From NCBI GenBank assembly GCA_949317995.1, contig OX439038.1, forward strand, positions 70,566,659 through 70,630,658: DNA of 64,000 nt, written 5' to 3'. Both the position numbers and the translations under genes were made by a program. The stretch comes from Acholoe squamosa. Lineage: Eukaryota; Annelida; Polychaeta; Phyllodocida; Polynoidae. This document shows, in pieces, positions 30,851 through 61,086 of this stretch. How positions within the stretch are numbered: position 1 is the stretch's first letter; each line of letters opens with the position of its first letter. The notes under the pieces were generated by a model that did no database searches, had not been told where the DNA came from, and saw nothing but the letters and a program-made list of their open reading frames with translations.

Positions 30851-32301
30851 ATGGGTAGAAAGAGGAAGCCGGAGGGGGAGAAGGTCCCTCACAGTGTCGT
30901 ACAGGCTGGGTACGAGGAGAGACAGAGGGAGAAGGAGGGGGAGGAAGCGTTCGTGGCCAGACGGAACGCGGAGAAGAAGGCGTCAAAGGCCAAGCGTGAT
31001 GCTGAGAAGACGCCGAGGGAGCGTGAGCGCACGAGGCGCATGTTGAAGTTTCGGGTTCAGAAGGCGCGGGAGGAGGAGAAGGCAGGAAAGGAAGGGAGGG
31101 AGCCCGCCGCCTGGACAAAGATGACCAGCGGAGAGGTATCTTATATATATGATGATATATTAATTTAAATTATAATTTGATATTATAATGTAAAGTAACT
31201 CTTTATTAATTGTAAATCTTTGACTGGAGTTCTATTATAGCTTAAATGTATTGTTGTATTATAAAATATACATACCTTTGGGTCAACATATTAGCGATAC
31301 AATGCTTGCGAGTAACTCACCAGTATTTTATTACTGACAAATGATTTTGTATTCTGACCCTTTTCTTACACAGTTTGTAGACCAGGAGATGGCCCGGGAA
31401 GATGCGGCGAGGGCGGCTGGAGGGGAGGGCACCTCTGGCACCTCGGGGCAGGCTGCCCAAGCTGCTGGCCCCCCGGCCAAGGTGGTGAAACGGAAGAAGC
31501 CAGCTGCTGCCACTGCCGCCACCAATGCCACTGCCGCCACTCCTGCGACTGACACCACTCCCGCCACTCCCGCTGCAGCCCAGACACCGGCTCAGTGCAA
31601 GGGCAAGGGACTCGGGAAGTCAACGGCGAGGCAGACACCTGCAGGTCGGCCAGCGCCTCGACGTGGGCGCGGGCGCGGCCTGCTGGTGCACAGCTCGCTG
31701 TTCACTCCCCAAGCCCCAAGCCCCCACCTTGAGCCGGTGTCATATGACATGTACGGAGTGAGTATGAATTAAAAGTGTCATTCGGTAATTGGTATAAATC
31801 TAAGTGCAGAGATGCCACTTTTCCTGATATACCAGGATTTCCTGGTATTTATTCCTTGTTCTATCCATCAGGCAACTAGTTAATTAAAAGTGTCATTTGG
31901 TAATTGGTTATCTAAGTAAAACTATACTTAAAGCGGAAAGTTGAACACTGCATTGGTGTATCATCAATAATTGGACTGTTATGTTTTCCTTGTTCTATAC
32001 ATCAGGAGACTGCCGAGGACCCCCAGTCTGTGTCCTCCGACGAAGACGAGCGGACGCTGGCAGGTGATGCCCCCGAGCACCCCCTCCTGCTGTCCGATGA
32101 GGAGGAGGCCCCCGCAGTGCCTGCACCACCGCCGCCTGCGGAGGACCCAACACAGGAGGGGGACGCGGCAGCCCCGCTGGCGGAGTCCACCCGGCCGGTC
32201 CGCCAGGCTGCCCAGCGCACCTCACCTGAGAGGCGCCGCAGCGACCGCGTCCGGGAGGACTCCCCAGCGGAGTACAACGTGTCGCTGCTAGAGGACATCG
32301 C
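30851..32301 (+). CDS. GC-rich multi-exon gene, charged low-complexity protein, 3' end missing
   Basis: Three exons join in frame: 30851-31135, 31374-31757 and 32006-32301, with consensus GT and AG sites and matching phases 0 and 0. They encode a highly basic Arg/Lys/Glu-rich N-terminus with MGRKRKPEGEK (likely nuclear signal and helix), an Ala/Thr/Pro stretch ending in RRGRGRG, and an acidic part (SSDEDER, LLSDEEEAPA) ending in SLLEDIA. The exons are strongly GC-rich while the introns are AT-rich. The last exon ends in phase 2 at GC|GTAAGT, and no continuation was found; a MITE sits at 32466-32873. No domain was recognised. The composition suits a nuclear or chromatin protein, or a transposon gene. 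Confidence 0.6.
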
Positions 32302-34153: not shown

Positions 34154-36295
34154 TTACAGATTTGCTTGAGTCTTGAATGTGCCACAGGTTACAAGAACAG
34201 TTGCCACAAAGAGTAACATCATCAAAGATATACAGGTTAACATTGTGTATGGGAACATGTGGGTCCCCCATTGTTTGAATATAGCACTAACAGCAGCAGG
34301 AACTAACATCATACCCAGATACAAGAAGAGCATAAGGACAGAAGTTGAACGTGAAGACAATTTAAGGGACCTCTTTGTTAAAACAAGAAAATTACCAGCA
34401 ATAGTGGACAAAGCCATGCCAAGAAGAACAGAACTGATCCATATTATACTGAAATGTGCAGTGGCTAATGTGCTTAGTACCCCCATGCCAATGACACCAA
34501 GGCTAATGCTAAAACCTATGTTGACTCTTAGGTAGCCAAACTTAGTGATGAAGATACCAAATATCCGTCCTGCAGATAGAGCTCCAAAGAATGCAGCATT
34601 CACAATAGTACTGGTGCTCTTGGCAATATTAAGTATCTTGTAGGAGTAAATTACAACGAGACCTCCATATGCGACTTCTATACCACCATAAAAGAAAAAG
34701 AACATGCAGTACAAAATCATCAGCATAAATCTTCTTGCTCTGCTGATACCTATCTCAGTCCTTGCTTTCTCTTTCCTGGCTTCCTCACTCAGTGGATTAA
34801 GCTGTGCCTGTCGACACATCATAAGAAAGAGTATAAAAAATAGCATTGCAACAAATACATCAAATGTGCCCATGATTAGATATGGATAGATGAAATTAGG
34901 ATATAAGCCTACACCTGGATTATCATGAGAGGAGATGTTTACACTCAAAATCCACAGTGTGTTTTTTTTTCACCTCACTAAAAACCATTCCCATTGAAAT
35001 GAGGCTAAAGTTACCATCTGACCCCAGGTTATTTTGTATAGTTCTATTTGTATGGTTAAAGGCAATTAAGTTGTCATCCACAAAGTTCCCTTGGAATGAA
35101 TTTGATATTAAGGGCCATATAGTAGACCCTAGTGAACTAAATAAGTGGAGGCCCAAGACAGCAGATGGGGCATCCCATAATGACATTATGTAGTGAGTAG
35201 AACCTGTAAATATAAGATTCATTCTATCAGCTAATTATGAATTTTATTCAAGTATACAATAGTAAAGCAATTTATTAAAAGAGTTTTGAGTTTGAGTTTG
35301 AAACAATTTTTTTTTGGCTCATGTATACAAGCCTTTCATACAATAAGTCAACTGATTCAATTCTATCATCATTGAAGTATATCAGAAAATATATTTATTT
35401 TAGTTTATCTTAAAAAGCATAGGGATTCAGCTGGGATGCTAATCATCCCATCCACATATCTCATTGGTGAATGAGAACTGGCAATGATAAGCATTAAGAT
35501 TCAGAACAGCAAAACATACCTCCTCCTATGAACCCAAGGCAAGTTCCAAGCAAAGCCATCACTATAGACAATACTGCATAATTTGCACAGAATGGAACTG
35601 AGACAGATACAGCAGCTAGTGCTAACATGGCCAGTCCAATTTGTGCCTCGTTGTTTAACCTGTCAGCCAGAATTCCAGATAGGAGGACAGCAGGTAGACA
35701 CCCAAGGTTCTGCCATGTATAAAGTAGGGCCATCTGGTCAGAGCTGGCTTTGGTGCTAGTTTCATGGTCAAGCAGTGAGGATCCAATTATAGATGAGAAA
35801 AAACCCTGTAGATGGTGATTCAATCAAATATGATAGCAATATGCATTGTGCTTCGCTGGGCCAAGAGTAAAGGACTATCTTTTTGTTTGACTTTCTACCT
35901 GTGAGGGAGAAGGAAATTCCAGAATCTGTGGGAAATGCCCCCCACACCTCTTGATGAAGCAATCAAGAAAAATATATAGAAAGGATTAGATACTATTCTA
36001 CTTAATCATTCTGTGTCTGTGTATCATCCAAAATAGACAATTTCTAAATCTTTCATAAGAAACTTACCAAACTGACAAAAGTTCCAAATGCTGCAACTGT
36101 TTTGGCTGCTTTTGCCAGACCACAGCATTTCCTTTTAGATGGCTTTATGTTAGTGTCACACCCTGACAGCGTAATGAAGATCTCAGACTCTTCATCTAAC
36201 TTTTGGTTTAGGTTTGGTAATGAATACCCCTTCTTTATATATCCATTGGAGACAGGGCTTTCATCAGGAATGGTATTTTCCTGAGGTTTGTCCAT
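34154..36295 (-). CDS. MFSD4/NaGLT1-like major facilitator transporter, one frameshift
   Basis: Four coding blocks on the minus strand predict about 505 residues, the usual length for this family. Exon 1 (36295-36068) is a cytoplasmic N-terminus leading into TM1. Exon 2 (35805-35520) carries the family signature: TWQNLG, then LLSGILADR and the end GFIGGG. Exon 3 starts at 35203 with STHYIM, and then GLHLFSSLGSTIWPL. The last block (to TAA at 34154) has the second bundle with GGIEVAYGGLVVIYSYK and FFGALSAGRIFG, typical of Na-dependent glucose transporter 1 and MFSD4. Splice phases of exons 1-3 agree. Between exon 3 and the last block the frame slips by one at a run of nine A (34962-34970). Copy 2 shows the two parts were once continuous. 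The slip may be a real lesion or a sequence error. The transported substrate is not shown by the sequence. Confidence 0.8.
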
Positions 36296-41640: not shown

Positions 41641-42556
41641 GAATTTAGGGGTCTAGACCCATAAAAAAAGTGAAAATGTCGGGAGATGCCATGATGCAAG
41701 AAGCACCTCTGATTAATTTTCAATACAATAAGCCCACAGTGTATTAACAAACAATCAACAAAGATAGCTTGGCAGAGTTCTTGGTTTATACCATACACTT
41801 TATTTAGTTTTGATTGTACCTTGAGTTACAAGAATAGTTGCAGCAAACAGTAGCATCATCATCGATATACAGGTTATCATTGTGTATGGGAATATGTGAA
41901 TGCCCCACAGTTTGAATATACCACCAATGGCAACAGGAACTAACATCATACCAAGATAATTATAAAGAAAACAATAGGGCAGAAGTTAAACGTGAAGACA
42001 ATCTGAGGGACCTCTTTGTTAATACAAGCACATTACCAACAGTAGTGGGCAAAGCAATGCCAAGAAGAACAGAATAGATCCATATTATACTGAAATGTGG
42101 AGTGCCTAATGTGCTTAATCCTACCATGCCAATGACACCGGGGCTAAGGCTAATACCTATGTTAACTCTCAGGTAGCCAAACTTAGGGATGAAAGTACCA
42201 AATATCCGTCCTGCATATAGAGCTCCAAAGAAGGAGGTATTCACAATAGTGCTGGTGCTCTTTGCAAAATTAAGTGTCTTGTGGGCATAGATTACAACCA
42301 AACCTTCATATGCAACTTCTATACCTCCACAGAAGAAGAGGAACATGCAGTACAAAATCATCAGCACAAATATCCTTGCTCTGCCCAAATTAACCTCAGT
42401 CCTTGTATCATCTTTATTTGCTTCCACACTCTTTGTCTTCATCTGTGCCCCTCGACACATCATAAGAAAGAGTATCAAGAATAGCATTGCAACAAATAGA
42501 TCAAACACACCTGTGATAAGATATGGATACACGAAATTAGGATTCAGACCTATATT

Positions 42557-45500
42557 TTTTTTTTTTTTTAATTGAAAATAAAGTTTATTGAGCCTCTCAC
42601 AATTTACAGAATCGTGGTAATTGAAGCACAACTGGAATTATAGTCAAACATCTATCAGTAAGTCAAACACAATCATACAATCAAGAAAAAAAGCTACAAA
42701 TCATATTCATATGGTAAATTAGATACCATATCAAATTGTACACCATATCAATTTTATAAAAATACAAACAATTATAGACACAACAATGAATCATGAGAAA
42801 TCTATGTAATAATGATAAATAATGATAGACAAAACAGGCCCAGACAAACAAGAACAAAAGTAACACAGGCTAAGGCAGAGAAATGTACAGGATTGTTGAA
42901 ATTGCGACTCGCACCATACACCAAACTTATAAGCTTCTATCAACGAGGGCTAGCATTGTACAAAATTCTAGGCTCAACTATATCATGCTCAAAACAAGTA
43001 GGATCATGTAAGGATAAAGTAAGAAGAAAGAAAACAGCACTTCTGTTATAACCAATCAGATTACCACTACAACTAATGCAAGGTCAAAAAGTACAAAGTA
43101 CAAAGTACAAAATACTAAGAAATAATAAATCAGTAAATGCTTAATGAATGCTTAAATGCTTGTCTAGCCTATTCCAGGATCAGAATCAGAGTCCAAACCA
43201 TCATCACTGGTCAATATCAAGCTCCCGACTTCATTAATGGAGTTGTCGTCATCATCATCATCCTCGTCCCCATCATCGCCAGGACCATCATTTGGTACTC
43301 CTAGATTTTCAATACGTCTGATTCTCTGCTTAAACTTCAGTTTTGTTTCAGTATGTTGATACCAGGTTCCTAATAGCGACCACAGTTCTGCACCGCGGTA
43401 AAGGGGTGACCTTTTATATGTACTTAATCTAGGCTGTTTAACCAAAAATTTAATTTTTTTATCTGACCTAGTGACTCTGTCACCTCTGTGATGATCCAAC
43501 ATATCATTACATCTGGAGTATTTATACATCAATACTAATAACATTTCATCACGTCTTCTATCCAAATATGGAACCTTGCTCCTTGTATGGAGTTCCTCAA
43601 CAGAGAGATATTCCCTGTTATACCTATAACACGTTCTTAGACCTCTATTCTGAAGTCTTTGAGCTTTGACAAGATTATCTTCATTACTACAACCTGCATA
43701 AACAAAGCTGCAGTAATCAAACAAACTTAGTATAGTCGTTTTATACACCAATATTGCAACTTTAAGTGTCAGTAAATGACGCAATTTAGCTAATCTGAAC
43801 AACCTGTTGTTATCCCTTTGGAAAACATTTTTCATTGCCAATTCCATGGTTAGGTAATTATCCAAGTGTAGGCCCAGGTAAGTATAGTCATGTACAGTTT
43901 CCAAATCGGTCTCTGCCATTTTCAAGGTACCCAACACAAGTTTAGGTAACTTCCTCCTAGAGCCAAACCATAGTGTTTTTGTTTTCTCGACATTAACTAT
44001 TAGACGCTTTTCTAAACACCATTTGTAAACATTATCAATATCAGATTGCAGACGTTTATGGGCTAGGGTTGATTTGTTACTGGAAGTATAAAATACTAAA
44101 TCATCCGCGTACATAATATATTTACAATCAGTGATTACAGACCCAATGTCATTGACATATAAGATAAACAACAACGGCCCTAGAACAGAACCCTGAGGCA
44201 CACCATACTGAACTGGCTGAATAGATGATTTAAACTCCCCAATTTTTGTGTATTGAACACGATTCTTTAAATAGCTGGCAATCCAACTTAAAGTGCTGTG
44301 GTGAATTTTTAAACGAGTCAGAGTGCGTATTAAGAGATTATGAGGAACACTATCAAATGCTTTTCTCAGATCCAAAAAACATGTCGCAGTTACATGAGAC
44401 CTATCAACATCATCATATAAATTGTTAACAAATCTAAAGATGGCATCACCAGTTCCTCGACCACGACGATAACCAAACTGATTACAATCCAGAAAGTCCG
44501 CTTTCTCCATAGTGTCATACAAATGTGAGTGCACTATTTTCTCCGCTATCTTTGAGGGTACCGATAACAATGATATGGGTCTCCAATTGCTAACTAATCT
44601 TTCATTGCCAGATTTTGGGATTGGACTTACTCGTGCTAACTTCCAGCTGTCAGGAAAAATACCTAAGTCAAAGCTCATTTGGTACAACCAAGTCATTTGA
44701 GGTAAAAGATTTTTTAAAGCCAGTTTTAATATGTCACAGCGAATATTTTCAATGCCTGACGTCTTATTTACATTAATCTCATCTATCAAATACTCCACTT
44801 CCTCTTGGCATACACTTATCTTGGGGTTACAGTCCTCAACCAGACTGTCATGGACTACTGGTGGATTTAAAGACTGAGGCAAGTCACTGTCTAGTTTTGA
44901 ACCTATTGTAGCAAAGTATCTGTTTATGTAATCAACTGAATCAGCATTACTTTTCATTTCACCATCTTCACCAATTAGCATAGGCGGATGGTTATCACTA
45001 GATGGCTTTAATACAGAATTAATATTTCTCCAAAAACGCTTAGGATCATTTTCAGACTCATCCAACTCGTGTTTAACATAATCCGCTTTGGCGTATCTAC
45101 AACTGACATTGATTCTACATCTCAATCTCCTGGCACGTTCAAGATAATGTGTTTCATGCGTTCTTAGAAATAAGGATACACAAGTTTCCCTTTCATGGAT
45201 TAAATTTCTTATATCAGCTGTCATCCATTTGTTACCCATGTCTTTGACAGTAATTTGGACCAGAGGACACACACTATCTAGGTAACATTCTATATGATTT
45301 TAAATAAACAACCATGCATCACTCGGATTTTCTAGTTCATAATACTCCTCCCAGTCTGCCTCAGCTAACCAGTCCAAGAACAGCTCTTCATCAAAATTCT
45401 TATAAGTACGTGTAGTAATTGTTTTTATAGTAACTACACTTTTCTGCTTCGTTTTAACACAATAAACGGGCAAGTGGTCACTAACCATAAAGTTCAGGGT

Positions 45501-46580: not shown

Positions 46581-46877
46581 CATCCTTCTTAAGGTCAAAC
46601 CTCTAAATCTGATTGAAATTTATATGAGAACTAAATTTTTTTGCCATAAATTTGGTTCAAATTCACTATTTGACATGCTTTAAGATGATAAGATTCCACT
46701 CCTTAAGTTACTTTTACTAGAAATGGCCACATCTAGGTTGGTCAACTCATTTTTTGACACACCTTGAAATTTGCTACTCCTTGAGTACAAGGTCATGACA
46801 CATTTAACCTTGGCCAAGGTCAAGGTCACCCTTTTCAAGGTCAAATGCCTAAATTTGGCAGAAATTAGCAAGGAAAA

Positions 46878-49800
46878 GCTGAAGGATTGGACCTCTTTAT
46901 ACCAGTGTCCAGTATTTTAGGGTGACCTCCGTTACTATCAGCCTTTAGTGGCCCTGGGCAGAAAATAAAAAGAATATTCTGGTTAATACCAGACTAAAAT
47001 GAAGATCAATTAGGAACATAGTTATGTGCCAGATTAGGACTTGATATCTCCTGACATCTCCGGACTAGATGCATTTCCCTGGCAAAATCTGAAGTAGTTT
47101 TTTTTAAGGTGAGTGACTTCTGTTACCATGACTAAGCATGTATTATTAAAGTGGAAACAAAAATAACTAGTACTACTCCAAAGAAAATGAAAAAAGGAAA
47201 CTGTATTGCAAAAATCAGATTGATTGATGGTATATCTAATTTTTTTTTAGGGAGAAAGTACTGTGAAAAAGTGACCTCCGTTACGAGTCAAGCCACAATG
47301 TCTAGCTTTAAAATCCTAAGTTGGTCAACTCATTTTTGACACACCTTGAAATCCAAAAATTAGCTACTCCTTGAGCACAAGGTCATGACACATTTAACCT
47401 TGGCCAAGGTCAAGGTCACCCTGTTCAATGTCAAACACCTAAATTTGGCAAAAATTAGCAAGGAAATCATGTTTATGGCTATAAAATTGGCTTTAATTAT
47501 TTTTTTGGCATGCTGTAAAATACTAAAATGGCCACATCTTTGAGTCTTTTTTCATAGTTCCAACAATTTTGACCTTAGACAAGGTCAAGGTCATCCTTTT
47601 CAAGGTCAAACATTGTTGAAATCAGCTGGGAAATTAAATTTATGACCATAACATTGGTTTGAATTTACTTTATGCCATGCTTTGAAATACTTGGTCTACT
47701 TTTTGAGTGCATTTTCAGGGTCATAACACAGTTGACCTTGGCCAAAGTCAAAGCCATCCTTTTCAAGGTTAAACACCTCAAATTGGCTGGTTATTAGCAG
47801 CTCATCCTAAAAAAAAATGGGAGAAAATTTACACTTTTGAGAACACAGAAACAGGCCATTTAAAGGTAAAAATGCTTTTTTGTCCAAAAATGAGTTATGG
47901 TAATTTTATTAGAATGGATGTCAATTTAACTGAATCAAACATTTTTAGCTAGATTCCCACACTGAATAGTGTAAAATCATCATAGATCCTGCTGGATGGG
48001 ACTAATATGCTGATATAAGTGGGGGATATTAACTAATGACAACAGAGTATTTCAGGTTGCCATGGTAATCAAATTTTGAATTTTCTTTAAATTTGTATTG
48101 AAAATGCCACTCCACCAGCTTTCAGAAGATGTAATGTGAACTATCAAAACAGTATGTTCAGAGATAACACAAAGTATATCATTGTGATTACAGTATAGTA
48201 ATACTGATTAATTTTCCTGAAATTGATTGGTTTTGTGAATATATGACCAGAGCCTTTATGAGGCATTTTACAGTTTAAGATATTTGGCATGATATCTTTC
48301 AACAATGGTTTCAATATACTTCCCATGCTCTTATTAATGTGTATTTTATGAAATGAAAGCTCTTGATGACCTTTTTTTAAATACTCTTTTCTCTGAGGCC
48401 TATCCCTTAGTTTTAAGGATGGGTCAAAATGGTCTTCTTTTTATTTAATTAATACTTTTTCAAAGTTCTAACATTGTTGACCTTAGCCTAGGTCAAGATC
48501 ATCCTTTGCGAACACCTTTGGTAACATCTCTGAATTTTTAACCTGTGATTTGTGCCTTTATATTTGTTTGAAGCATATAATATATCTTTAACAATATGCA
48601 GGGTAACACTCATTAATAGTTCAAAATGGCTGCCATAAATTATACATGGTTCTAAATGTCATGAATAGATTCCTGGACTTCAGAAATGTCCTTTTAGTAC
48701 TAATTCTTTTTTGTCTTTCTATTTTGATTAGGGATCGAGTAGTCATTTTTTGAAAACACCCTATTGTTCCAAGATTTTGATCTAATTCTGGCAGCCATCT
48801 TGATTATCTCAATTTCATTCATAGTTGATATTGTAACAGTTACAGAGAACCCAGGGTCTGGCTAAAAATCCATCTTCCACCAAATACTATAGTCAGTCAC
48901 ATTAAATTTTAAGTGTCCTTGACCTTGTGGAACACAACTTTGACCTATTTACCTAGGTCAACCATGTCAACTTTAGAATTCCAAGCTTGTTAAAAAGTGT
49001 ATATAAACCAATTTTGTAGTTGTAAATATGATTCCCTTAATGACTAAAATACCTTAGTGTTTGACCTGGTAAGGATAACCAGTGATAACATTGAACTTGA
49101 GCACGATCTACCACATTATGGCCTTCCTTGGTCTTAGACCACATTAGTATTTTTTAAAGCATGCCATAAATTGAATTTAACCTAATTTTATGGTCATAAA
49201 TGCAATTTCCTTGCTGCTTTTATCCAAAATAAAGTGTTTGACCTTTCAAAGGAGGACCTTGACCATCTCAACCATGTTATGACCATGAAAAGGTAATCAG
49301 GAAGTAAACCATTTTAGAATTTTAAAGCATGTCAAAAAGTGAATTTAAACCAATTTTATGGCCATAACTTTTATCCCCTTGGTGTTTTGACTTTGAAAAG
49401 GATGACCTTGGCTAGGGTCAATAATGATAGGACCTTGAAAAAGGACCCAAAGAGTTGACCATTTTAAGTTTTTAAAGGTAGACATTATTTGTCAGAGAAC
49501 TGAACAGGTGGGGATTTTTTTTCCTATGCTTCCCCGGAACACTGGGAAAATACAAAAGATAGGGGAAAAAAATTAGTCGATCAGACCACTTTAATTTTTT
49601 AAAGGATTTCAAAACCCTTAAACTGCCTGTACTGCATAAATGCATCACTATAGCACTGTATTTGGGAAACCCAGAGATGGAAAGTCTATTTCATAGCCAT
49701 AAAGATGATTCCCTTGAGAAATTCAGCCGAATTCAGGTGTTTGACCACGAAAAGGATGGCCTTGACCAAGGCAAAGGTCAACCATGTCATGACCTTGAAA

Positions 49801-50836
49801 AGACACTTAGCGTTTAGTTACCTGCCTGATTTCAACCAGATTTAGGTGTTTGACCTTGAAGATGATGAGCTTGCCCTAGGCTAAGGTAAACAATGTTGGA
49901 ACCTTGAAAAAGTATTCAAAGAGAAAACCATTTTAGGTTTTCAGATGGGTGTTAAAAACTTAATTTAAGCCAAATTTATGGCCATAAACATGATTCTTTT
50001 GCTAATTTCAGCTGAATTGAGGGTGTTTGACCTTGAAAAGGATGGCCTTGACCTTGGCCAAGGTCAACCATGTTATGATCTTGAAAAGGCACTCAACAAG
50101 TAGACCACTCTAGTATTTCAAAGCATAACATAAAGTGAATTTAAACCAATTTTATGGACATAAATTTAATTTCCCAGCTAATTTCAATGATTTTTGACCT
50201 TGAAAAAGATGACCTTGACCTTGTCTAAGGTCAACCATTGTTGGAACCATGAAAAAGGACTCAAAGATGTGGCCTTTTTTATACTTTACAGCATGGCAAA
50301 AAGTTAATTAAAGCCAATTTTTTAGCCATAACATGATTTCCTACCTAATTTCTGCCAGATTTAGGTGTTTGACCTTGAAAAGGGTGACCTTGACCTTGGC
50401 CAAGGTCAAATATGTCATGACCTTGTACCCAAGGTGTAGCTAATATTTGGATTTCAAGGTGTGTCAAAAATGAGTTGAGCAACTTAGGATATTAAAGCTG
50501 ACATTGTGGCTTGACTCAGGTGCGTGAGCAGGCTATGGAAATGGAGGTAACTGAAAATGGGGGTGGGCGGTAACAGAGGTCACCGGTAACGGAGGTCACT
50601 TTTTTACAGTATTTCCTCTCTAGAAAATTAGATATACCATCAATCAATCTGATTTTTGGTATACAGTTTCCTTTTTTCATTACCTTTGGACTAGTATTGG
50701 TTATTTTTGTTTCCACCTTAATTATACGTGCTTAATCATGGTAACGGAGGTCACTCACCTTAAAAAAACTACTTTAGATTTTGGCAGGGAAAAGCATCTA
50801 GTGCGGAGATGTGAAGAGATATCAAGTCATCATCTG
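46878..50836. repeat. Foldback structure with AGGTCA-rich inverted arms
   Basis: The left arm (46878 to about 47800) repeats inverted at about 49000-50836. Its outermost 150 bp lie beyond the Harbinger at 60571-60723. Shared landmarks include GGTGACCTCCGTTAC, AGTGGAAACAAAAATAAC and GACACACCTTGAAAT. Units of about 200-250 bp within each arm contain CCAAGGTCAAGGTCA or its complement many times. The open frames at 47151-47339 (+) and 50516-50716 (-) are the same arm sequence read twice. Between the arms (47800-48900) no gene is seen. Confidence 0.8.
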
Positions 50837-50854
50837 GGGGCTGTTTTTCCTCGT

Positions 50855-51150
50855 TCGGCGGAGGGTCCGCATTTAATATGCGGGGGCCGTATTTAATCAA
50901 CGCGGCGTTAGGTGTTTAAGCTCAAAAATATGATCAAATATAATTACCAATACGGACTTCTGCGTTCAAACGCGGACCTCCGTGTTCAAACACGGATTTT
51001 TCCTGTTTTTCCTCATTTCATGGAGGCAAATATTCTGCTCCTTTTTTAGGTTTCTGTGGGTTTTACACGGGGGGGTAGGTGGGTAGGATAAGTAATATAT
51101 ATATCAAATTACAGCTCAACGCGGACCTTTTTCCTCCGTTTTCACCCCCG
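50855..51150. repeat. Subterminal CGCGGACC motifs, left end
   Basis: Words such as GGTCCGCATTTAATATGCGG, CAAACGCGGACCTCCGTG and CAACGCGGACCTTT recur here, and again at the right end (60355-60425, for example ACGGAGGTCCGCGTTCAGG). They are likely binding sites for the element's Myb-like protein or transposase; this is inference from position and repetition. Confidence 0.65.
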
Positions 51151-51177
51151 TATTTTATTATAATATAAATTAATTAA

Positions 51178-51599
51178 ATGAAAACAGGTCATGACCTCGA
51201 CCTTGACCTTCATAGGGCGGTTGTTTTGATAGTGGTCAGAGACAGACACAGAACAGCAGTAATGGGGTTCACTGTACGAGCAAAGAGACAGTACATGAAG
51301 AGGGTAGATCCCATGAGCTTCTTTACTGACAAGAAGTTTCAGGCTCGGTACAGGCTCAGCAAAGAAGTGGTCCGTGTGCTGATAAAAAACTTCGTGGCCA
51401 CAAGAAAGAGGAAGGTGCTAAGGGGCATTCATGCAGTCCCTCACAGGATACGTGTGAGTACATTCACTTCCCAGGATAAAAAAAAATGATGCCCCAAGAC
51501 CCAACCAAACCATATGGAAATCTTAGCTATGACCCCCCACTAAGAAATATAAATTTTATATGCCCAAGGAGCCACCTGACCTAGTAAATCCTGGAATGA

Positions 51600-51650
<51 letters not shown>

Positions 51651-53263
51651 CATGTGCTCCTTCTGTCACAAGAAAATGACTTTCCTCTCTTTCTCTTCTT
51701 GCAGTTCTGTATAGCCCTGAGATATTTTGCGACAGGCGCAAACTACTCAGCAGTAGGAGACTGCCATGGGGTGTCTAAGAGCATGGTGTCTATCAGTGTA
51801 GCTGCTGTGTCTGATTACTTCCACGACCACTTGGCTGAGTACGTGCACTGGCCTGATCTGGAAACAGAAAAAAACAACAAAGCTGTTGTTTTCCTGCGCG
51901 AGAAGAAAAAACCAGGATGTTTTGGCCTGGTAGACGGGACTCATATCGCCATACACTGCCCCAGGGGTTTAACAGAAGACGAGAACCAGTACTATTGCTA
52001 CCGGGGTTACTACTCGATAAACACTATGGTAAGTCATTTTATTTTCTTGAGGAAAAAAAACCAATTTTCCTTTCTCCTCCATAATATTTTAAAGGTAATA
52101 ACGTGTAAATTCTTGATAATAATTTATGTTAAAATCAGAATAAAAACAAATTAATCTCTAAAAAAGATTTTTAATTTTCAGATAGTCTGTGACTTCGATG
52201 GTCTTATCATGCATGTCAATGCCGCTAACCCCGGTAGCTGTAATGACGTATACGTGATGAATGGGTCCCAAATAAAATATCTCGGAGAAAGACAGGACTT
52301 CAAGGGACTCTTCTTACTCGGAGACTCCGGGTAAATATATTTCTTTTCCTTTCATAAAAATCTTTTTGCCTACTAGACCATTTACTTTCTTTTGCTTTAA
52401 TATGAGTTTAATTGCATTTCATGTAAAATAATGGTTATGATAAAAAATAAATTTTTTTTATCTTTTTTCGTACAGATATGTCCTGACTGACTACATTTTG
52501 ACCCCGGTCAAGTTTGAGGAAACCGTAGGAGATGTGCTGTATAACCGGTGGCACAAGAGCACGAGATCTGGGGTGGAAAGAACAATTGGTCAACTCAAGC
52601 AGCGTTGGAGGTGAACAAATTTTTTATTTCTTGGAACAAAACCAAGGTTCTGCCTTTCAACCTTAAAAAGAAAGAGAACACAAGAAGTTTCCCGGATATT
52701 TTTATAAATATTCTAACCACTTATCCTATTATATATGGCACTTTGCACATGACATATCCAAATAAATATGCGTTAAACTTAATTACTTTTACTGATATCC
52801 AACAACAACATCCAGTCACCCGTTCCTTCATATATTTCCCACATGGCTATTTATCTGTTTATGTAACTGTTTCTACCCAAAAGTTTGTACCTTAAGTCAC
52901 ATAACAAATTGTTTTTCAAATTTAACACAACAACTTTTTTCCTTCAGATGTCTAGACTCCAGTGGGGGGTACCTATTCCATACACCCAGGAGGGCAGGAC
53001 AGATAATAGAGACCTGTGTAGCTCTCCACAATTGCGCTAAGGTGGGGAGATGTCAACTCCTGCGGGATTATCCAGCCCATGACCAGTTCAGACGTCTGCA
53101 GGAACCCATAAACCAGCCTGACAATGTGGGAGGACAAGCTCGTGTCATGTTCCACAACATGCGGGCTGAGTTCATCCGTGAGTGGTTCCGGCCGGAATTG
53201 GAGCCAGCTCGCGCTAGGGCTGCAGTGCAGCGTTTGGCTTTGCAGCGCTTGCCAGTGCGCTAG
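51178..53263 (+). CDS. PIF/Harbinger DDE transposase (HARBI1-like), five exons
   Basis: Exons 51178-51453, 51705-52028, 52182-52330, 52476-52610 and 52948-53263 join in frame with consensus splice sites and give 399 residues (371 if translation starts at ATG 51262, which begins MGFTVRAKRQYMKRVDPMSF). The N-terminal part has RYRLSKEVVRVL and ALRYFATGANYSAVGDCHGV, a helix-turn-helix-like segment. The catalytic domain shows LVDGTHIAI (first Asp), NPGSCNDVYVM (second Asp), LLGDSGYVL, and VERTIGQLKQRW (Glu). The C-terminal HNC-type segment (ETCVALHNCAK) is also conserved. All three acidic residues are present. Intron 1 contains an (AT)n tract. A poly(A) signal AATAAA lies at 53434. Confidence 0.93.
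51603..51648. repeat. AT dinucleotide microsatellite
   Basis: About 23 uninterrupted AT units in intron 1 of the transposase gene. Confidence 0.95.
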
Positions 53264-53876
53264 GGTAACCAATGTGAACAGGGATGATAGCAGTTTTATA
53301 GCACAGAATGTTTAATTGTAATCGTACTTTGGTTAAAAGACCGACCAATTAGGAGCCTCAAACTTTATGATCAATTTCAAGGATGCTGTAAATATGTGAA
53401 TTAACCTTTACAATGACAATGAATTTTTTTTCTAATAAAATGGAAAAGACAAATTATTTCTCCATGTTACCTCTATTTTTATCATGATATATGAGCAGAA
53501 ACATTAAGTACATGTACTTTCTGATAACTCAAGAAAGATAACCAGCAACAAACATAAATAGTATAAAAGTAGATAAAACAAAGGAAGCATGCTCCTTATC
53601 TAAGGCACATAATGTAATACCTGAGTATTGAAATGATCATCGTAACACTGATACGCTTAGCACCCACTGATTGTTCAGTACCTGTCAATGATATGCACAT
53701 TATACAGTTAAATAACTTTCTGTTATTTCTCTTAAGAAGTTATACCTTCATCATGCTATGTCCTTAATAGCTACATCATAGAACGAAATGAAAAATAAAT
53801 TGTACATAAAATACAATTCTTTTTAGCAATGACTGACTTTTCTTGGTTGTATCTCGCGTTTTGACACAACAGTTTC

Positions 53877-56800
53877 TTATTCTCTGTTTTTCCTTTTAAT
53901 TTTAATGCGCTGGGATCTTTTAACGGGCCTGTTATCGTGGTCTCTATCTGAGACAGATCCCTCAGTGTCTGCTTCCGAGGTTCCCCCTTCCCTCCCATAG
54001 TTCTTCAATGATTCTAATATAGCCACTGCTTCTGCCATGGGTACCCGCTGAATTTTCACATCCTGTGGTGCATTGTCCTCTGTCTCTTCTTCCAGCTGCG
54101 TTGAGTTTGGTGGAACAGCTGTGTCCTTTGATGGACAGCTGTCTGTAAGTCCGTCCTGCTGAGACGAGCTCTGTAAGATGCCATCTTCCTGTTGTGGGCT
54201 GTTCTGTATCACTACCTCCATTTGAGGGGGGCTGTGAATGACCTGAACCTCCGGCTGCACTCTGTCCTGTGCTTCAGTATCAACTCCCTCTGATCCCATT
54301 ACTTCGGCGGGTGTAGTGTCTTCCTGGACTAAGACAACCGTAGAAGAGGGCATAACTGAGAAAGAAGGCAACTGGGTCGCGTCAGGCTCGAGACTGGACT
54401 GCCGGTTGACCGCTGAAAAAAAAAATTTTTATTTAAAGACTATATATATTTTATAACATTAAGCATAAGAAATGATTTTTAACTGACAGTTTTTCAACTT
54501 TGCACTTTAATAAGCTCCATGACATTAATTTCTTTCATAATTCTATTTGTAAAAGAAATAAAAATATATGGAAATTTCTTTTTAACGGACCTGTTGCTGG
54601 AATGAGTATTTTATCCGGCTGTTCGGTGGCCTCTTCAGGGGAACAAGTCTGGTAGAGCTTCGGCTGACCATCTAGAAACCAAAGCAATGTAATGAAACCG
54701 GTGTGTCATGACATCTTGAACAATAAAAATAGATATATTGCTGTAATTAAGGGTTAATATTCTATGTCAATTTTTAAAATATATTTACATCCAAGATGGA
54801 ATACCTAAATAAACATTTTAATGGTGTTTTGCGTATTAAATGTGCTTTTTTTTTAAATGAGTTAAAGATATTTTAATCTACTTACTGACTGGAGGCTCTG
54901 GGTGCGTTAAACTTAATTCCAAATGTTGAGTCGGATGGTCTACGTGGAAATCTCCATTGTCGCGCGAAGGAGGGAACACAGGTTCAGATGGCTGAGCAGG
55001 TGGTTGAGCTGAGTTTGCTGGAAATGGAGTAAATGAAAAGAAATTAAACTGGCTGATTTATTAAGAACCGAATTATTTTTAATAGATGATTTTAATGAAA
55101 TTTTTTTTTTCAAGTTCTTTTATTATATTGCTGAACCTGGCCGATAGAACATATTTAATAAGAGAAATAGTGAGAGAGAAATGGATGAGAAATAGTCATT
55201 GAAAAAAAATTAACAAATTACCTTCTAACACTGCCTTTATGAGGTGCTGGCTGTTTATTCTTTCTTGCGCCGCTGTCAAATGAGACAAATTTGATGTCAC
55301 TGCAACTAATACCTTGTCTGTTTTCTCAGCCACCGACAGAGACAGTTCTTGTTCCTTCCTGACCGTGTCAACTGAAATAGAGAGGCTTGCCATATTCTGG
55401 CTTAATGTCGTTACAATGTCATTTAGGTTCACAACAGTCGCATTTATTTTATCATGTGATTTGCTGACCGCTGCAGCAGCCTGAAGTTGTGAATCAGCTA
55501 TGTCTCCTGCAGCCTTAAAAATTTGTTTTCCCACATTTTCAAGGCCCTTGGCTAGTTCTACTTCTTTCTTCACACTACGTTCAGCCAATTTCTCCTCTAC
55601 CTCAAGCATAGTATCCCTGAGCGATTTATAATCATCTATGTTGGAATTTTTTATTTGCATTATCCTTTCGTTGTGAGATTTCAATGCTTCCTTCAGGGCT
55701 CGCATATTATCTGAGGCCATGTCAATTAGATTCTTTTTAAGAGCAGCAGACATTTCACGAGAAGCTTTGTTGAAGCTCTCAGTTATACTCTGAGCCAAGT
55801 CTTTTGTTGAGTCTGCTATCTGACCTTGAGTCTGCATAATTTTTTGAACAAGCTTCTCCTGTTCTTCGCCAATTACTTTGTTTGTCTCCTTTACAACATC
55901 TTTTAGGCTATCTACAAGAGCAAACATTTCTTCCTTCCTCTCCTGGGCTTCTTTTTGTTGTATGGCATCAGTTTCTAGTATGGGGTCAGTCTTTTGGTTC
56001 TTTTCTCCCTTTTTGGTGTTAGTTTTCTTTTGACTGAAGAGTTCCTTCTTGGATTGAGTTTTCTGGTTAACAGCACGCTCTATTTTCTGTAAAGCAGGAC
56101 TGTTAGGAGTTGTACCTTTGGCTTTGACAGCCAAACGTGGAGAGCACCTTCTTCCGGCCTGAGAGGTGAAAACTGGAGATTCTTTCTCTTTGTTTTGGTT
56201 AGGAGTACTCGTACTGAAAGCTTTATATCCTTCAGGAAACTCTGGTTCATCCTCTTCCAGGTCTGGCAGTGATGCATTTATTATCTTCGAGAAAGAAGCC
56301 GATCTGCGAAGGCGTGGCCTCTTTGCAGGTTGGTCAGATATATGTTCAGTATTTATTTCATATTTATTTACCTCGTTATTTATTTCAGTCCCATCTTCCA
56401 TGGAGTATTCTATTTCTTGGACTTCTGTTTCATTTATATTTTGATGAAGTGTGGGTGGAGCTTGCTCTTGTTGACTTACATGATGCTGGGTTTGCAGCAT
56501 GTCTCCAGGATTTTCTGGCTGATTGCGGACTGAACGTTCAGGGTAATTAACCACAGGCTGCTTTTGTTGTACAGTATGGGTCGGCTGTTGGTGTGAGCTA
56601 CCACTCTGCTGTTGGTATGAAGGAACTCCCTGCTGTTGGTACGAAGGACCTCCCTGCTGTTGGTGAGAGCTCCCACCCTGCTGTTGGTACAAAGGACGTG
56701 CCTGCTGTTGGCGTGAGCTACTACCTGGCTGCTGGTAGGACGGACCTCCCTGCTGTTGGCGTGAGCTACCACCTGGCTGCTGGTAGGACGGACCTCCCTG

Positions 56801-59800
56801 CTGTTGGCGTGAGCTACCACCTGGCTGCTGGTAGGACGGACCTCCCTGCTGTTGGCGTGAGCTACCACCTGGCTGTTGGTGTGAGCTACTACATGGCTCT
56901 TGGTAAGACGGACGTGCCAGCTGTTCATGTGAGGGACCTGCCTGCTGGTGGTGTGAGGAAGTAGGCCAATTAAAGTTAACATTTTCAGGGTCCATGTTAC
57001 CTGGAGATTGATCCTGCCTGAAGTTTACTCTTTGGATATTAGTATTTTTATTTTGCCCAGTGTTAGAATTTTTATTTTCTTGTAGTCTGGCACGGTTTTT
57101 CTCCTGAAGCCTGCACACCTCAGCCAAAAGGTCGTCCTTAGTTCTGCCTGAAGGTAAAAGGGATACAACACTTGTGTCTGGGGTCTTCTTTTGCTCTGCC
57201 TTTTTAACCCTGGTATTGAAAGAGTCAACAATGTGAAGAAGAGTACCAGAGTTTACTCGGGGCTTCGCAAGAAGTTGTTGTGATGTCGCATTGGATAGGT
57301 AATTTGGGTTAGTCTGTGTGATGTTATCCTCTCTGTTCACTTCTTCCTGGAAGTTGGAAGAAATGACAGGGTTGTAGTTCTCTTGGTAAGAACGGTGCTC
57401 TGCAGGGGTCATGTTCCTCTCCATTTCTGCTTCCACCCTAACCGCTTGCTCTTTATTAACAAAGGGCTCTGCAATAAAAAATAGGTGACAATGCATAAAG
57501 CTATAAAATAATTATATCCAAGCCTAAAACAGTTATTTCAGTGTAAACTTAACTTAAAAAATTCACGGTTTTACCTGTTCAATAAAGAAGCACATATTTG
57601 GGAAAAGCTAGGAATTATTCTTGGTGAACAGAAAAATTGATTCCATGTTCTTACTTACCTCCACCTTCTAGGCTTTCTACCAATTGACCTTCTAGTGCCA
57701 CTTCCAGGGCCTTAGAAGGCATACTAAGGGCCGCATAGTCCTCTCGCTCTTCTCTGTCCGGGTCATAGCAAGACCAAGGCCTGTCCTTTCGATCTCCGCC
57801 CTTCAGGTTGGGGGGCTGCATTCCTGGTATGCCTGCAGAAAAAGTTAGTGAAACACATGTTACTAATGAAATCATTTATATATGAACCATATTTTATAAG
57901 TTCGAAAAAATGCCTCTTATATACTGAAGTATCTTTGAATACCTACTTAAAGAATAGAAAAATACAAGTAAATATAGGTCAGATTTATTTACCTAAAATT
58001 ACTTCGTTACCGGAGTAATCACAGATCGCCTGTTCCAGCTCATCAAGGTAGTCCTCTGCGTCCCTCTGACCGCTGCCGGTCTTGTATTTGTTGTCTATCA
58101 TCTGTCTCTGTAAGTACAAATGTGCTTCAGTTATTTCAAACAGCCTTAGAAGACAGAAAAGAACCAGATGGATTTTAATATTTAAACGACTATATGTCCC
58201 ACCCATATCGAAAATCCAAAAAAGACTACATGAAATAATAATTTATTCAGGATGTGGAGAAAAAAAAATTTCATTTACCTTGCGTCTAGCGTCTTGGCCG
58301 AAATAATTTAACTTGTCCTTGCACTGAGGTATGGATCTGTAACGCTTCCCGTTAGCCATCACGTACTCTGAAGAAGTAATTCATCGTAGGAAATGAAAAG
58401 AATATCCATCTCATGTGTTACATAGACACAGAACATTACAATTATTTACAAGATAATATGCATTAAAATATATATATGGATTGAAATATACTTTTCTGTA
58501 TTAAGTTCTAGAGAGAGAGAAAAGGTGTTTCTAATATTAAACATTTTTAATAGGTTAAATATATTTATGAACAAAAACAAAAAACGAGACTATTTTATAC
58601 CTTGTAATTCTTTCCAAGCTAATTCCTTGAGCACTGCGCCGTCAGTGGGGTGCTTGAAACGGCCTTTCAAAACCACTTTAAGGTGGTTTGCCCCAAATAT
58701 GAGAGGCCTCAGTTCATTCGCTTTCCAGTGTACGCCCTTCATCTGCTGCTCTAGTTGGGCCAGAGCCTGTGGGTCAGTGGGGAGAATAACTCGGCCCGTG
58801 ACTGGGTCCAAAGACAAGCTGACCATGCTTTTGTTCAGATTAAGGGACCGATCCGATGAGGAAGGACCAGGTGGGACTGTTTCAGAACTGGTAGCACTGG
58901 ATCCTTGGACTTCACCGACTGCAGAAGACACTGCCTGCAGAGCCTCTGTGAGCCCTGGAATGTTAGAAGATGACTGTGGAATGACCTGAGTGAGCGCTCT
59001 AACAGCTGCTGTTAGTCCTTCAAAGTTTTGAACATTAGCAGCAGGGACAGCCCGCCCTTTCCCTTTACCTCGGTAAGAAGAGGAATTAGACCCACGAGGT
59101 CTTCCCCTTCCTCGCCCTCGACCCCTCGAGGAACTTCCTCTAGTGGGCTCTGGCAATATATATGTGGGATCAGTTTGTTCACAGTCTGGAGTCTCTGGGT
59201 ATATGTACCGCCGTTTCTCCGGCGGAGGGAAGTGACTTTGATGTTCTCTACTTGGGGCCATTCCTTTTTGCCGGCGTGCTGACAGATCTGCTCTCTGACG
59301 TTCCATTGTGTGTAGGTGTGACATATAACTGATGGCTTGATCCCCTGCGTCACCAGAGAAATTTTCGGGTCGAGTGTCATCATAGAATTCATCGTCATAT
59401 GGTTCTCCATAATTGGGGTCAGCAAACTAGGTGAAAAGAAAGAACAACCGGTCTTTAGTTCACTTTTAATAAAGTATTCTTAGAAAGACGAATATATAAT
59501 TTGCATTGGATTATTTTACAGTGTACTTATTGGACATACAATTTTTATTTATATGAATAAGGAAAAGAGGTCAAATATAGTGAAAACATAACTTATTTAT
59601 ATTAATTTCTAAGATTTCAGGGCCTACTTTAATCTGAGGCTAGGGGCTGTCTGCTAGAGACCCACACCCTTAGCAAGGGAAAAAATTTTTCCTTTTACCT
59701 TGTAACATGCAAAAGTGCCGAAAAGTATGAGAAGGGGGGAGGGGGAGGCTCAAAAAAGGGCCAAGAAGAGTGGTCTATACTGAAAAAGGGCTTAAAAAAA

Positions 59801-60194
59801 TAAAGGTCAGGGTAGTCCATTTTTTAACCCGATAATTTTTTGGTTCAGCAGATTCCTTCTCCCCCCCCCCTTTTTTTATTGTTCCCCAAAAAAATTACTT
59901 GACAGCTATTCACACGTCACAATCCCATGTTATTACAAATTGATTGTTTCAGTTCATTGTCAGAAATAGGTAGGGTGGGTGAAAGGACCTTGAAATAAAG
60001 GGCGCCAACTACACCAGGCCAGAAAGTAAACTAATGTTAACCGGCGTCATGAAAACCGATGTTTCTAAGTACGTAATCTAATTAAAAAAAAGCATGTCAT
60101 ATACAATGCACACACAGGAAGAGACAGGAGACACAGGCCTTTCATTTAATAGTTTGATGGTTGTGTTACTCACCCTCTTTTCTCCACGATTCAT
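53877..60194 (-). CDS. Harbinger Myb/SANT-like protein, unusually large (1,406 aa, nine exons)
   Basis: Exons 60194-60174, 59426-58601, 58367-58279, 58107-57993, 57832-57659, 57468-55222, 55017-54886, 54671-54591 and 54412-53877 join with consensus splice sites; all phases agree and the sum is 4,221 nt. It starts MNRGEKR, followed by an acidic region and an RGRGRGR stretch. Residues about 240-355 match the NAIF1-type Myb/SANT-like DNA-binding domain: LKELAWKELQEYVMANGKR, QCKDKLNYFGQDARRK, a TGSG turn, and ELEQAICD ending in GIPG. Residues about 580-705 are a Gln/Ser/Gly repeat. About 915-1157 is a long helical, probably coiled-coil part. The C-terminus is acidic and ends in KRSQRIKIKRKNRE. 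Known Harbinger partners carry the transposase into the nucleus and bind the element; this one has the same domain but far longer extensions. Confidence 0.85.
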
Positions 60195-61086
60195 GATTTT
60201 TCTCGGTGTACAACTCGAAAAAGTTGACACCGGAAGAGAATGGCGAACACGGGGAAGACCTTCCGGTGATGACGTAGGACTGAGATCCCGCAGGGATTCC
60301 CCTCTTTTCTCGCGTGATTGCAGGGTTCTCCCTATTTTTTCAGTAGGGCAGGACAGAACGCGGACCCAAACACGGACATGAACACGGAGGTCCGCGTTCA
60401 GGTCCGCGTTGAGGGCCGCGTTTAATAAAATCATGTTATATTAGCCGGACGGAAATAATTAGGCGAACTTATACACCTTTGACAATAAAAATAAATATGG
60501 AATTTTTTTATTCCGGGTTAGCAGTCCGTGTTTATATATTTACTATTAAATGGGGAAAAACAGGGCCCTGGCACATAACTATGTCCCTAATTGGTCTTTA
60601 TTTTAGTCTGACATTGACCAGAATATTCTTTTTATTTTCTGCCCAGGGCCACTAAAGGCTGATGGTAACGGAGGTCACCCTAAAATACTGGACACTGGTA
60701 TAATGAGGTCCAGTCCGTCAGCTTAATAGGGAAATTTAGGGGAAATTTTTATTTTTTGAATTTTAACACTAAAAAAACTATAAATCATCACATTTGATAC
60801 CATACATATATTTTCTTTGCCAATTGTAATGGATCAATAATTGTAATCATGCTTCAGGACATAGTGTTTTCAGTAAGCAGCCTTTTTCATCATAAGGCCC
60901 CCCACATGCAAAAAGTACGAAAATAATCTATGTTGTGGACATTTTTCTTTAATTAGTTCTAGAAATCCTAAAAAAGTCCAAAAAGTTAGTAAAAACTGAT
61001 TTTTAAATGTACTATGGCACATAAACTTCCCTGGACAGCAGTTCCCTACTTAACATGGAATGTGCCTTATGTAGTGAGTAGAACCT

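Follow-up and report, generated by a model that had tools for sequence, protein, structure and literature searches.

A large predicted Myb/SANT partner protein with a conserved, putatively helical extension in a NuwaI-like Harbinger transposon of the annelid Acholoe squamosa

It is only partly clear why transposons of the PIF/Harbinger type require two proteins, and papers on the question assign DNA binding and nuclear import. The Myb-like protein of Harbinger3_DR is reported to recognise a subterminal motif of 9 bp (PMC9710019), and the transposase depends on an interaction with this protein to enter the nucleus (PMC2836001). A functional analogue, not a relative, is TNPA of the CACTA element En/Spm, a second protein that binds repeated subterminal motifs and is required along with the transposase; it belongs to another superfamily and is made by alternative splicing (PMC2613891). 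Here we describe a mobile element in a 64,000-nucleotide stretch of the genome of the polynoid annelid Acholoe squamosa (assembly GCA_949317995.1, contig OX439038.1, positions 70,566,659 to 70,630,658; hereafter the window) that, like Harbinger3_DR, Ping-Pong and the vertebrate pair HARBI1-NAIF1, has two proteins, and whose Myb/SANT-like partner is predicted to be 1,406 residues long. Partners of the Harbinger3_DR, Ping-Pong and HARBI1-NAIF1 type typically have a few hundred residues and are not known to have the part that is encoded here by exons 6-9. Published support for that size is indirect: autonomous candidates of NuwaI, the closest described group, average 4,462 bp (PMC4482050). We found no relevant paper in the open-access literature searched that combines Harbinger, Myb or Myb-like, and coiled coil, and the accessible parts of PMC9179366 and PMC10294476 give no partner lengths. 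The novelty lies in how large the partner is and in its conserved architecture; the system itself is of a known kind. This far larger partner occurs in several families, two or more of which have dozens of copies, with an extra part under apparent selection and a clear candidate motif at the element ends. Such families lend themselves to a defined test of the division of labour within the protein: what pairs the ends, what carries the transposase, and what purpose the additional 700-1,000 residues serve.

NuwaI was placed by Han et al. (2015) in the PHIS (PIF/Harbinger-ISL2EU-Spy) superfamily and is characterised by a 5'-CWG-3' target-site duplication and by terminal inverted repeats (TIRs) of 12-61 bp that usually start with GGG (PMC4482050). 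The window element occupies 50837..60567 (9,731 bp). Long matches between copies stop at these positions and the flanks examined differ; for this boundary only inter-copy matches of more than 700 bases were considered, and their outer ends lie near 50834 and 60568. CTG flanks the element at 50834..50836 and at 60568..60570. The left TIR, GGGGCTGTTTTTCC, lies at 50837..50850 and the right TIR, GGCCCTGTTTTTCC when read inward, at 60554..60567; 12 of the 14 bp match, the left repeat starting GGG and the right one GGC. The window copy is inserted in one arm of a long palindrome, and the other arm is free of the element. Positions 46950-47104 of that other arm represent a paralogous empty site, to which the two flanks, when joined with a single CTG, are 91% identical over 155 bases.

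We searched the genome (1.48 Gb, 63 contigs) for further copies. A 1-kb probe from exons 7-9 of the partner gene gave at least 40 matches at 98-100% identity over its full length (40 of 72 candidates scored), and ten copies (c0-c9) were fetched and compared with that of the window. The mean pairwise identity of these eleven copies is 99.6% (minimum 99.0%), and the family therefore moved recently. With the left end shifted by three bases, CTG or CAG was read on both flanks of all eleven copies, with identical triplets on the two sides in ten. In the eleventh, c4 (L017-L018), CTG is paired with CAG, the sole case in which the central base differs.

The CWG duplication of NuwaI is present in the window family and in two of three more diverged families from the same genome, which we name after their representative loci (L030, L032 and, as the third, L035). 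The left TIR starts with the GGG that is usual in NuwaI and the right one with GGC. As in NuwaI, a gene for a DDE transposase (PF13359) is accompanied by a separate gene for a Myb/SANT protein, here with a sub-threshold match to PF13873. Unlike the average autonomous NuwaI candidate of 4,462 bp (PMC4482050), the window element measures 9.7 kb and has a nine-exon gene for a partner of 1,406 residues, and the elements L030, L032 and L035 start with GAG instead of GGG. Judged by its duplications, its two-gene layout and its left GGG, the element is probably a NuwaI-type transposon of the PHIS/PIF-Harbinger superfamily. An initial first-pass annotation of the window had read the large gene as the partner of a Harbinger transposon. 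A two-gene element of the Harbinger superfamily was indeed found, but its duplication is of the CWG and not of the classical type. The classical PIF/Harbinger target duplication is TWA, and all eleven copies have CTG or CAG in its place. The target site of mPing, of the Ping-Pong system, is TAA.

In silico splicing places the partner gene on the minus strand, from an ATG at 60194 to a stop codon ending at 53877. All eight introns are GT-AG and the spliced product is a single open frame. The nine exons, their consistent phases and the length of 1,406 residues at 53877..60194 are exactly those of the first-pass annotation. Exon 1 (60174..60194) contributes seven codons (21 nt) and is equally long in L030 and L032. 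Exon 2 (58601..59426) encodes an acidic N-terminus, an RG-rich stretch (about 59052-59141) and the first part of the Myb/SANT domain, the remainder of which follows in exon 3 (58279..58367; 89 nt). Exon 4 (57993..58107) has 115 nt, as in L030 and L032, and exon 5 (57659..57832; 174 nt) encodes the GIPGMQPPNLKGG... block, which is well conserved between families. The largest exon, exon 6 (55222..57468), encodes a linker, the Gln-rich repeats and a long putatively helical stretch. Exon 7 (54886..55017) encodes the acidic tail and is followed by exon 8 (54591..54671) and by exon 9 (53877..54412), with the rest of the tail, a conserved basic end and the stop codon. In intron 8, after 54425, the window copy lacks five bases that are present in the ten other copies; the coding frame is intact.

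Seven of the eleven copies (window, c1, c2, c3, c5, c6 and c8) have an open partner gene of 1,390-1,406 residues. The gene has a premature stop in c0 and frame changes in c4, c7 and c9; all eight pairs of splice sites are intact in every copy. Both genes are open together in five of the eleven, including the window copy. A search for spliced retrocopies, limited to the exon 5-6 junction with at most two mismatches, gave no match and is uninformative either way. An open reading frame arising by chance was rejected on the ground that other families (L030 and L032) share the exon structure. We are close to certain that this is a real nine-exon partner gene that belongs to the transposon. In a genome annotation, such a gene could pass for a host gene.

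The partner protein has several distinct parts, and those that had been listed from the start (RG-rich stretch, Myb/SANT-like domain, Gln-rich repeats, acidic tail and basic end) are all present. Within the first 600 residues, PF13873 (Myb_DNA-bind_5) was matched with an E-value of 5.9e-4. The gathering score of 21.7 bits was reached neither by the window protein (20.2 bits) nor by that of L030 (15.1 bits), and the two matches span positions 21-76 and 3-76 of the 78 in the profile; perhaps the domain is a divergent member of this family. The best match of the Myb region among PDB sequences had an E-value of 0.85, and exons 6 and 9 matched no Pfam family at its cut-off. Residues 905-1162 (55222..55981, minus strand, the last of them encoded in exon 7) form an amphipathic stretch of 258 residues without a single proline. 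Hydrophobic residues recur in it every 3.5-3.75 positions (residues 906-1158; z of 6.1-7.0 against shuffled sequences), and the L030 partner has 231 proline-free residues with a similar periodicity (z of 4.5-6.8 over residues 651-905). These properties fit a long amphipathic helix or coiled coil. In L030, a match to PF01442 (apolipoprotein; E 2.6e-4) reached 21.2 bits against a cut-off of 90 and was set aside as a generic amphipathic-helix match. The acidic tail has a net charge of -25 in both the window and the L030 partner, and a basic end follows it.

The Gln-rich segment is the variable part of the protein. It is encoded by tandem repeats of 24/48 bp (56584..56958, minus strand), and residues 571-705 are 28% glutamine. 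Copy c3 lacks 48 bases of exon 6, and the relatives L031 and L033 lack 24; such losses are what changes in repeat number would be expected to produce. No comparable array was seen by eye in L030, L032 or L035. The closer relative L029 has another repeat, also containing glutamine.

We then asked how widely this architecture is shared. A protein search with the helical stretch listed 149 matches. In 53 of them the identity is at least 97% and the match extends over 257-258 of the 258 residues (48 stop-free, one with an internal gap); the others are fragments or diverged, down to 22% identity. The list holds the best-scored candidates, and examination was confined to its stronger matches. Of four diverged relatives that were fetched, three (L030, L032 and L035) represent families with the same layout: an RG-rich N-terminus, the Myb domain, the conserved exon 5, a proline-poor helical stretch, an acidic tail and a basic end. 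L030, one of 25 rows with the same score, is the relative that was modelled in full. Its element (8,592 bp, 17-bp TIRs, flanked by CAG/CAG) is 25% identical to the window in the helical stretch, and its nine-exon gene encodes a partner of 1,098 residues. Every one of the eight intron phases agrees with the window, and exons 1, 3, 4 and 5 are of the same sizes (21, 89, 115 and 174 nt). Between the two proteins, identity is 58% for window residues 241-415, 24% for residues 916-1275 and 45% for the final 33 residues matched. L032 (9,496 bp, CTG/CTG), modelled over the region of exons 1-6, also has exons 1, 3, 4 and 5 of the window's sizes; exon 2 of this copy is frame-broken, and the RG stretch and the helical stretch can be read in its open frames, as can a tail with KRSERIRIRKQ at its end. 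In L035, translated matches cover the RG-rich N-terminus, Myb domain, exon 5, helical stretch, acidic tail and a GSVSDRD...R.S.R end; CTG stands on its left, no CWG was seen on its right, and the right end was placed by symmetry. At the L030 and L035 loci, exon 2 of the transposase shares 70% identity with its window counterpart. Three closer relatives show decay, L031 with a stop and L033 and L034 with damage to splice sites and frame. L029, with a stop in exon 5, matches the window from that exon through the helical stretch, and its transposase match runs off the end of the fetched stretch.

The two genes also have a similar arrangement at further loci. Of 73 exon-5 places, 31 have a transposase within 12 kb; all 31 pairs are convergent, and 30 are spaced at 5.0-6.1 kb, as is the window pair (5.95 kb). 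The places compared were a manual selection from the more diverged entries for each gene (73 of 150 rows for exon 5, 43 of 150 for the transposase); it left out the window's own family and those close to it, transposase rows resembling L030 and a number of further diverged rows.

To find out whether the extra part is maintained as protein, we compared substitutions at nonsynonymous (pN) and synonymous (pS) sites. In the three pairwise comparisons between L030, L032 and L035 (447-474 aligned codons), exon 6 has a saturated pS of 0.81-0.87 and a pN of 0.32-0.34. A pN well under pS shows that frame and sequence were maintained, and at the level of sequence comparison exon 6 is under purifying selection between families. 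Within the window family, the ten other copies compared with the window have a pN/pS of 0.39 in exons 1-5 (9 nonsynonymous and 7 synonymous changes), 0.69 in exon 6 (23 and 9) and 1.47 in exons 7-9 (5 and 1). For three older relatives pooled, the values in the same order are 0.60 (22 and 11), 0.52 (31 and 16) and 1.47 (20 and 4). All these counts are small, and many of the changes will be decay after insertion. The density of nonsynonymous changes in exons 7-9 among the ten copies (5 in 578 sites) lies below that of variants in introns (44 in 2,097 sites). The argument for the tail is the similarity of its last ~30 residues between families. Because three families keep the layout and exon 6 is under purifying selection, we conclude from these comparisons that exons 6-9 belong to the transposon gene.

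The ends of the elements carry a candidate binding motif. Sites resembling AACRCGGAC cluster at both ends in all four families, and in the window they form a left subterminal array (50837..51186) with four CGGAC cores and a right one (60218..60567) with six. The terminal 2 x 350 bp hold 10 of 19 occurrences of CGGAC/GTCCG in the window element, 17 of 22 in L030, 13 of 17 in L032 and 12 of 20 in L035. Ranked by terminal clustering among 508-511 pentamers, this word came third, first, first and fourth, respectively, and the other pentamers of the top five are mostly overlapping pieces of the same longer word. The bases preceding it, positions that had not been used in the motif search, are also biased: over 40 instances from the window, L030 and L032, A occupies position -4 in 34 and position -3 in 36, C occupies position -2 in 25, and G or A occupies position -1 in 38. 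The motif is common to the window family and to L030 and L032 although their TIRs differ. Since the Myb-like protein of Harbinger3_DR reads a subterminal motif, the partner would by analogy be the likeliest reader of AACRCGGAC.

We suggest that the partner is a multivalent, oligomerising protein that binds the element ends, a mechanism that we consider, taken as a whole, rather probable from the predicted features of the sequence. The Myb domain would bind the several AACRCGGAC sites that lie within 350 bp of each terminus. The conserved block around exons 4-5, other parts of the protein, or both, would recruit the transposase and, like the Harbinger3_DR partner, mediate its import into the nucleus. 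The helical stretch of about 250 residues would oligomerise the DNA-bound partner, and oligomerisation could bridge several weak sites per end and pair the ends of a 9-10 kb element for the transposase. The RG-rich, acidic and basic regions may provide accessory, charge-based contacts, and the Gln-rich array may be an optional insertion. We propose more tentatively, as a possibility that could well fail, that in one lineage of DNA transposons a small Myb helper became an oligomeric scaffold of 1,100-1,400 residues that reads arrays at the ends and synapses long elements. If so, the scaffold would act in a Harbinger-type transpososome as an "end-pairing" subunit that has its own gene and takes no part in catalysis.

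Several observations weigh against this oligomeric, end-binding partner. By pN/pS, neither the window family nor the older relatives give any indication that the amino-acid sequence of exons 7-9 is constrained. The transposase could read the motif instead, and shared ancestry may account for some of the likeness between the motif sets of L030, L032 and L035. L029 has no match to exons 1-4, and one of the 31 pairs of exon 5 and transposase is spaced at 3.1 kb. A profile of the helical stretch found nothing significant in PDB (best E 0.12), and the probable coiled coil of the first-pass annotation is a reading of the periodicity of the sequence.

Among the alternatives, an unlikely one is that a short isoform is the working partner and that the nine-exon product regulates or represses transposition. 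If intron 5 of the window gene is left unspliced, a stop follows after two codons and a protein of about 410 residues results, and CACTA elements do use alternative transcripts (PMC2613891). Against a short working form stand protein-level selection on exon 6 between three families and splice dinucleotides intact in 11 of 11 copies of the partner gene. The two PIF/Harbinger genes, moreover, appear to be independent and not alternatively spliced (PMC2836001), a statement that concerns the gene pair and not the partner gene itself. We give a still lower probability to phase separation of the transposition complex, driven by the RG- and Gln-rich regions. The RG-rich stretch recurs in all four families examined, residues 571-705 are rich in glutamine, and L029 has its own Gln-containing repeat, yet no comparable array was seen in L030, L032 or L035 and its repeat number varies between copies of the window family. 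RG-rich basic stretches are also ordinary nucleic-acid contacts. The first-pass annotation had proposed an assembly or condensate-forming function; assembly survives in part, with the helical stretch, RG-rich region and basic C-terminus recurring in four families, whereas the condensate is weakened by a Gln array that is not shared.

The other two alternatives question the unity of the gene. Exons 6-9 might derive from a host gene with a long helical rod, captured early in the lineage, and be retained for a function directed at the host (to target chromatin or evade silencing, for example) and not for end pairing. The absence of a Pfam family at its cut-off in exon 6 is compatible with such a capture, and the basic end of the tail, conserved between families, could be a targeting signal. 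The best-scored relatives of the helical stretch are, however, repeated families, with no clear single-copy host gene among them, and we regard a capture of this kind as improbable. The search for relatives with the same extensions, which might have assigned exons 6-9 to a separate host gene, instead found the downstream part in the same place in L030, L032 and L035. That the gene model fused a short Myb gene, made up of exons 1-5, with a second gene downstream (exons 6-9) is very improbable indeed: the phase of the exon 5-6 junction is identical in the window and L030, the flanking exon of L032 has the same size, and further loci share the order and spacing. Compared with these alternatives, the oligomeric end-binding partner remains our preferred reading.

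The transposase gene (51178-53266, plus strand) faces the partner gene and encodes 399 residues in five exons, with a PF13359 (DDE_Tnp_4) match of E 7.4e-34. Exon 1 (51178..51453) has a start codon and donor site chosen by us, three of the five donors tried preserving the frame. Of the DDE residues, the first D lies in VDGTH in exon 2 (51705..52028), the second D in GDSG in exon 3 (52182..52330) and the E in VERTIG in exon 4 (52476..52610); exon 5 with the stop codon follows at 52948..53266. The gene is open in nine of the eleven copies and has deletions in c6 and c8. In these two copies (L021-L022 and L025-L026), the partner gene is open at 1,406 residues next to the broken transposase gene, and they are possible partner-only elements. 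A search of viral contigs for a transposase exon gave four pattern-matching stretches, none of which was confirmed, and an Rfam scan of the window gave no match.

Outside the element, positions 46876-50833 and 60571-60724 belong to the long palindromic repeat, which has many internal sub-repeats (the 25 longest of 287 inverted pairs were listed). A larger element of 13.8 kb, bounded by a 157-nt inverted repeat (46876-47032/60568-60724), was considered and rejected: the 157-nt repeat belongs to the host palindrome, because the inter-copy matches end at 50837 and 60567. Elsewhere in the window, a 711-residue open frame at 43164-45299 (minus strand) resembles a reverse transcriptase by eye, with a YADD motif, and is probably a LINE. 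Two open frames at 34154-34969 and 41960-42637 (minus strand) are closely similar, look by eye like membrane proteins and are apparently a duplicated gene. An open frame of 144 residues at 31338-31772 (plus strand), rich in Ala, Pro and Thr and with a GRPAPRRGRGRG stretch, is possibly a piece of another repeat-encoded protein.

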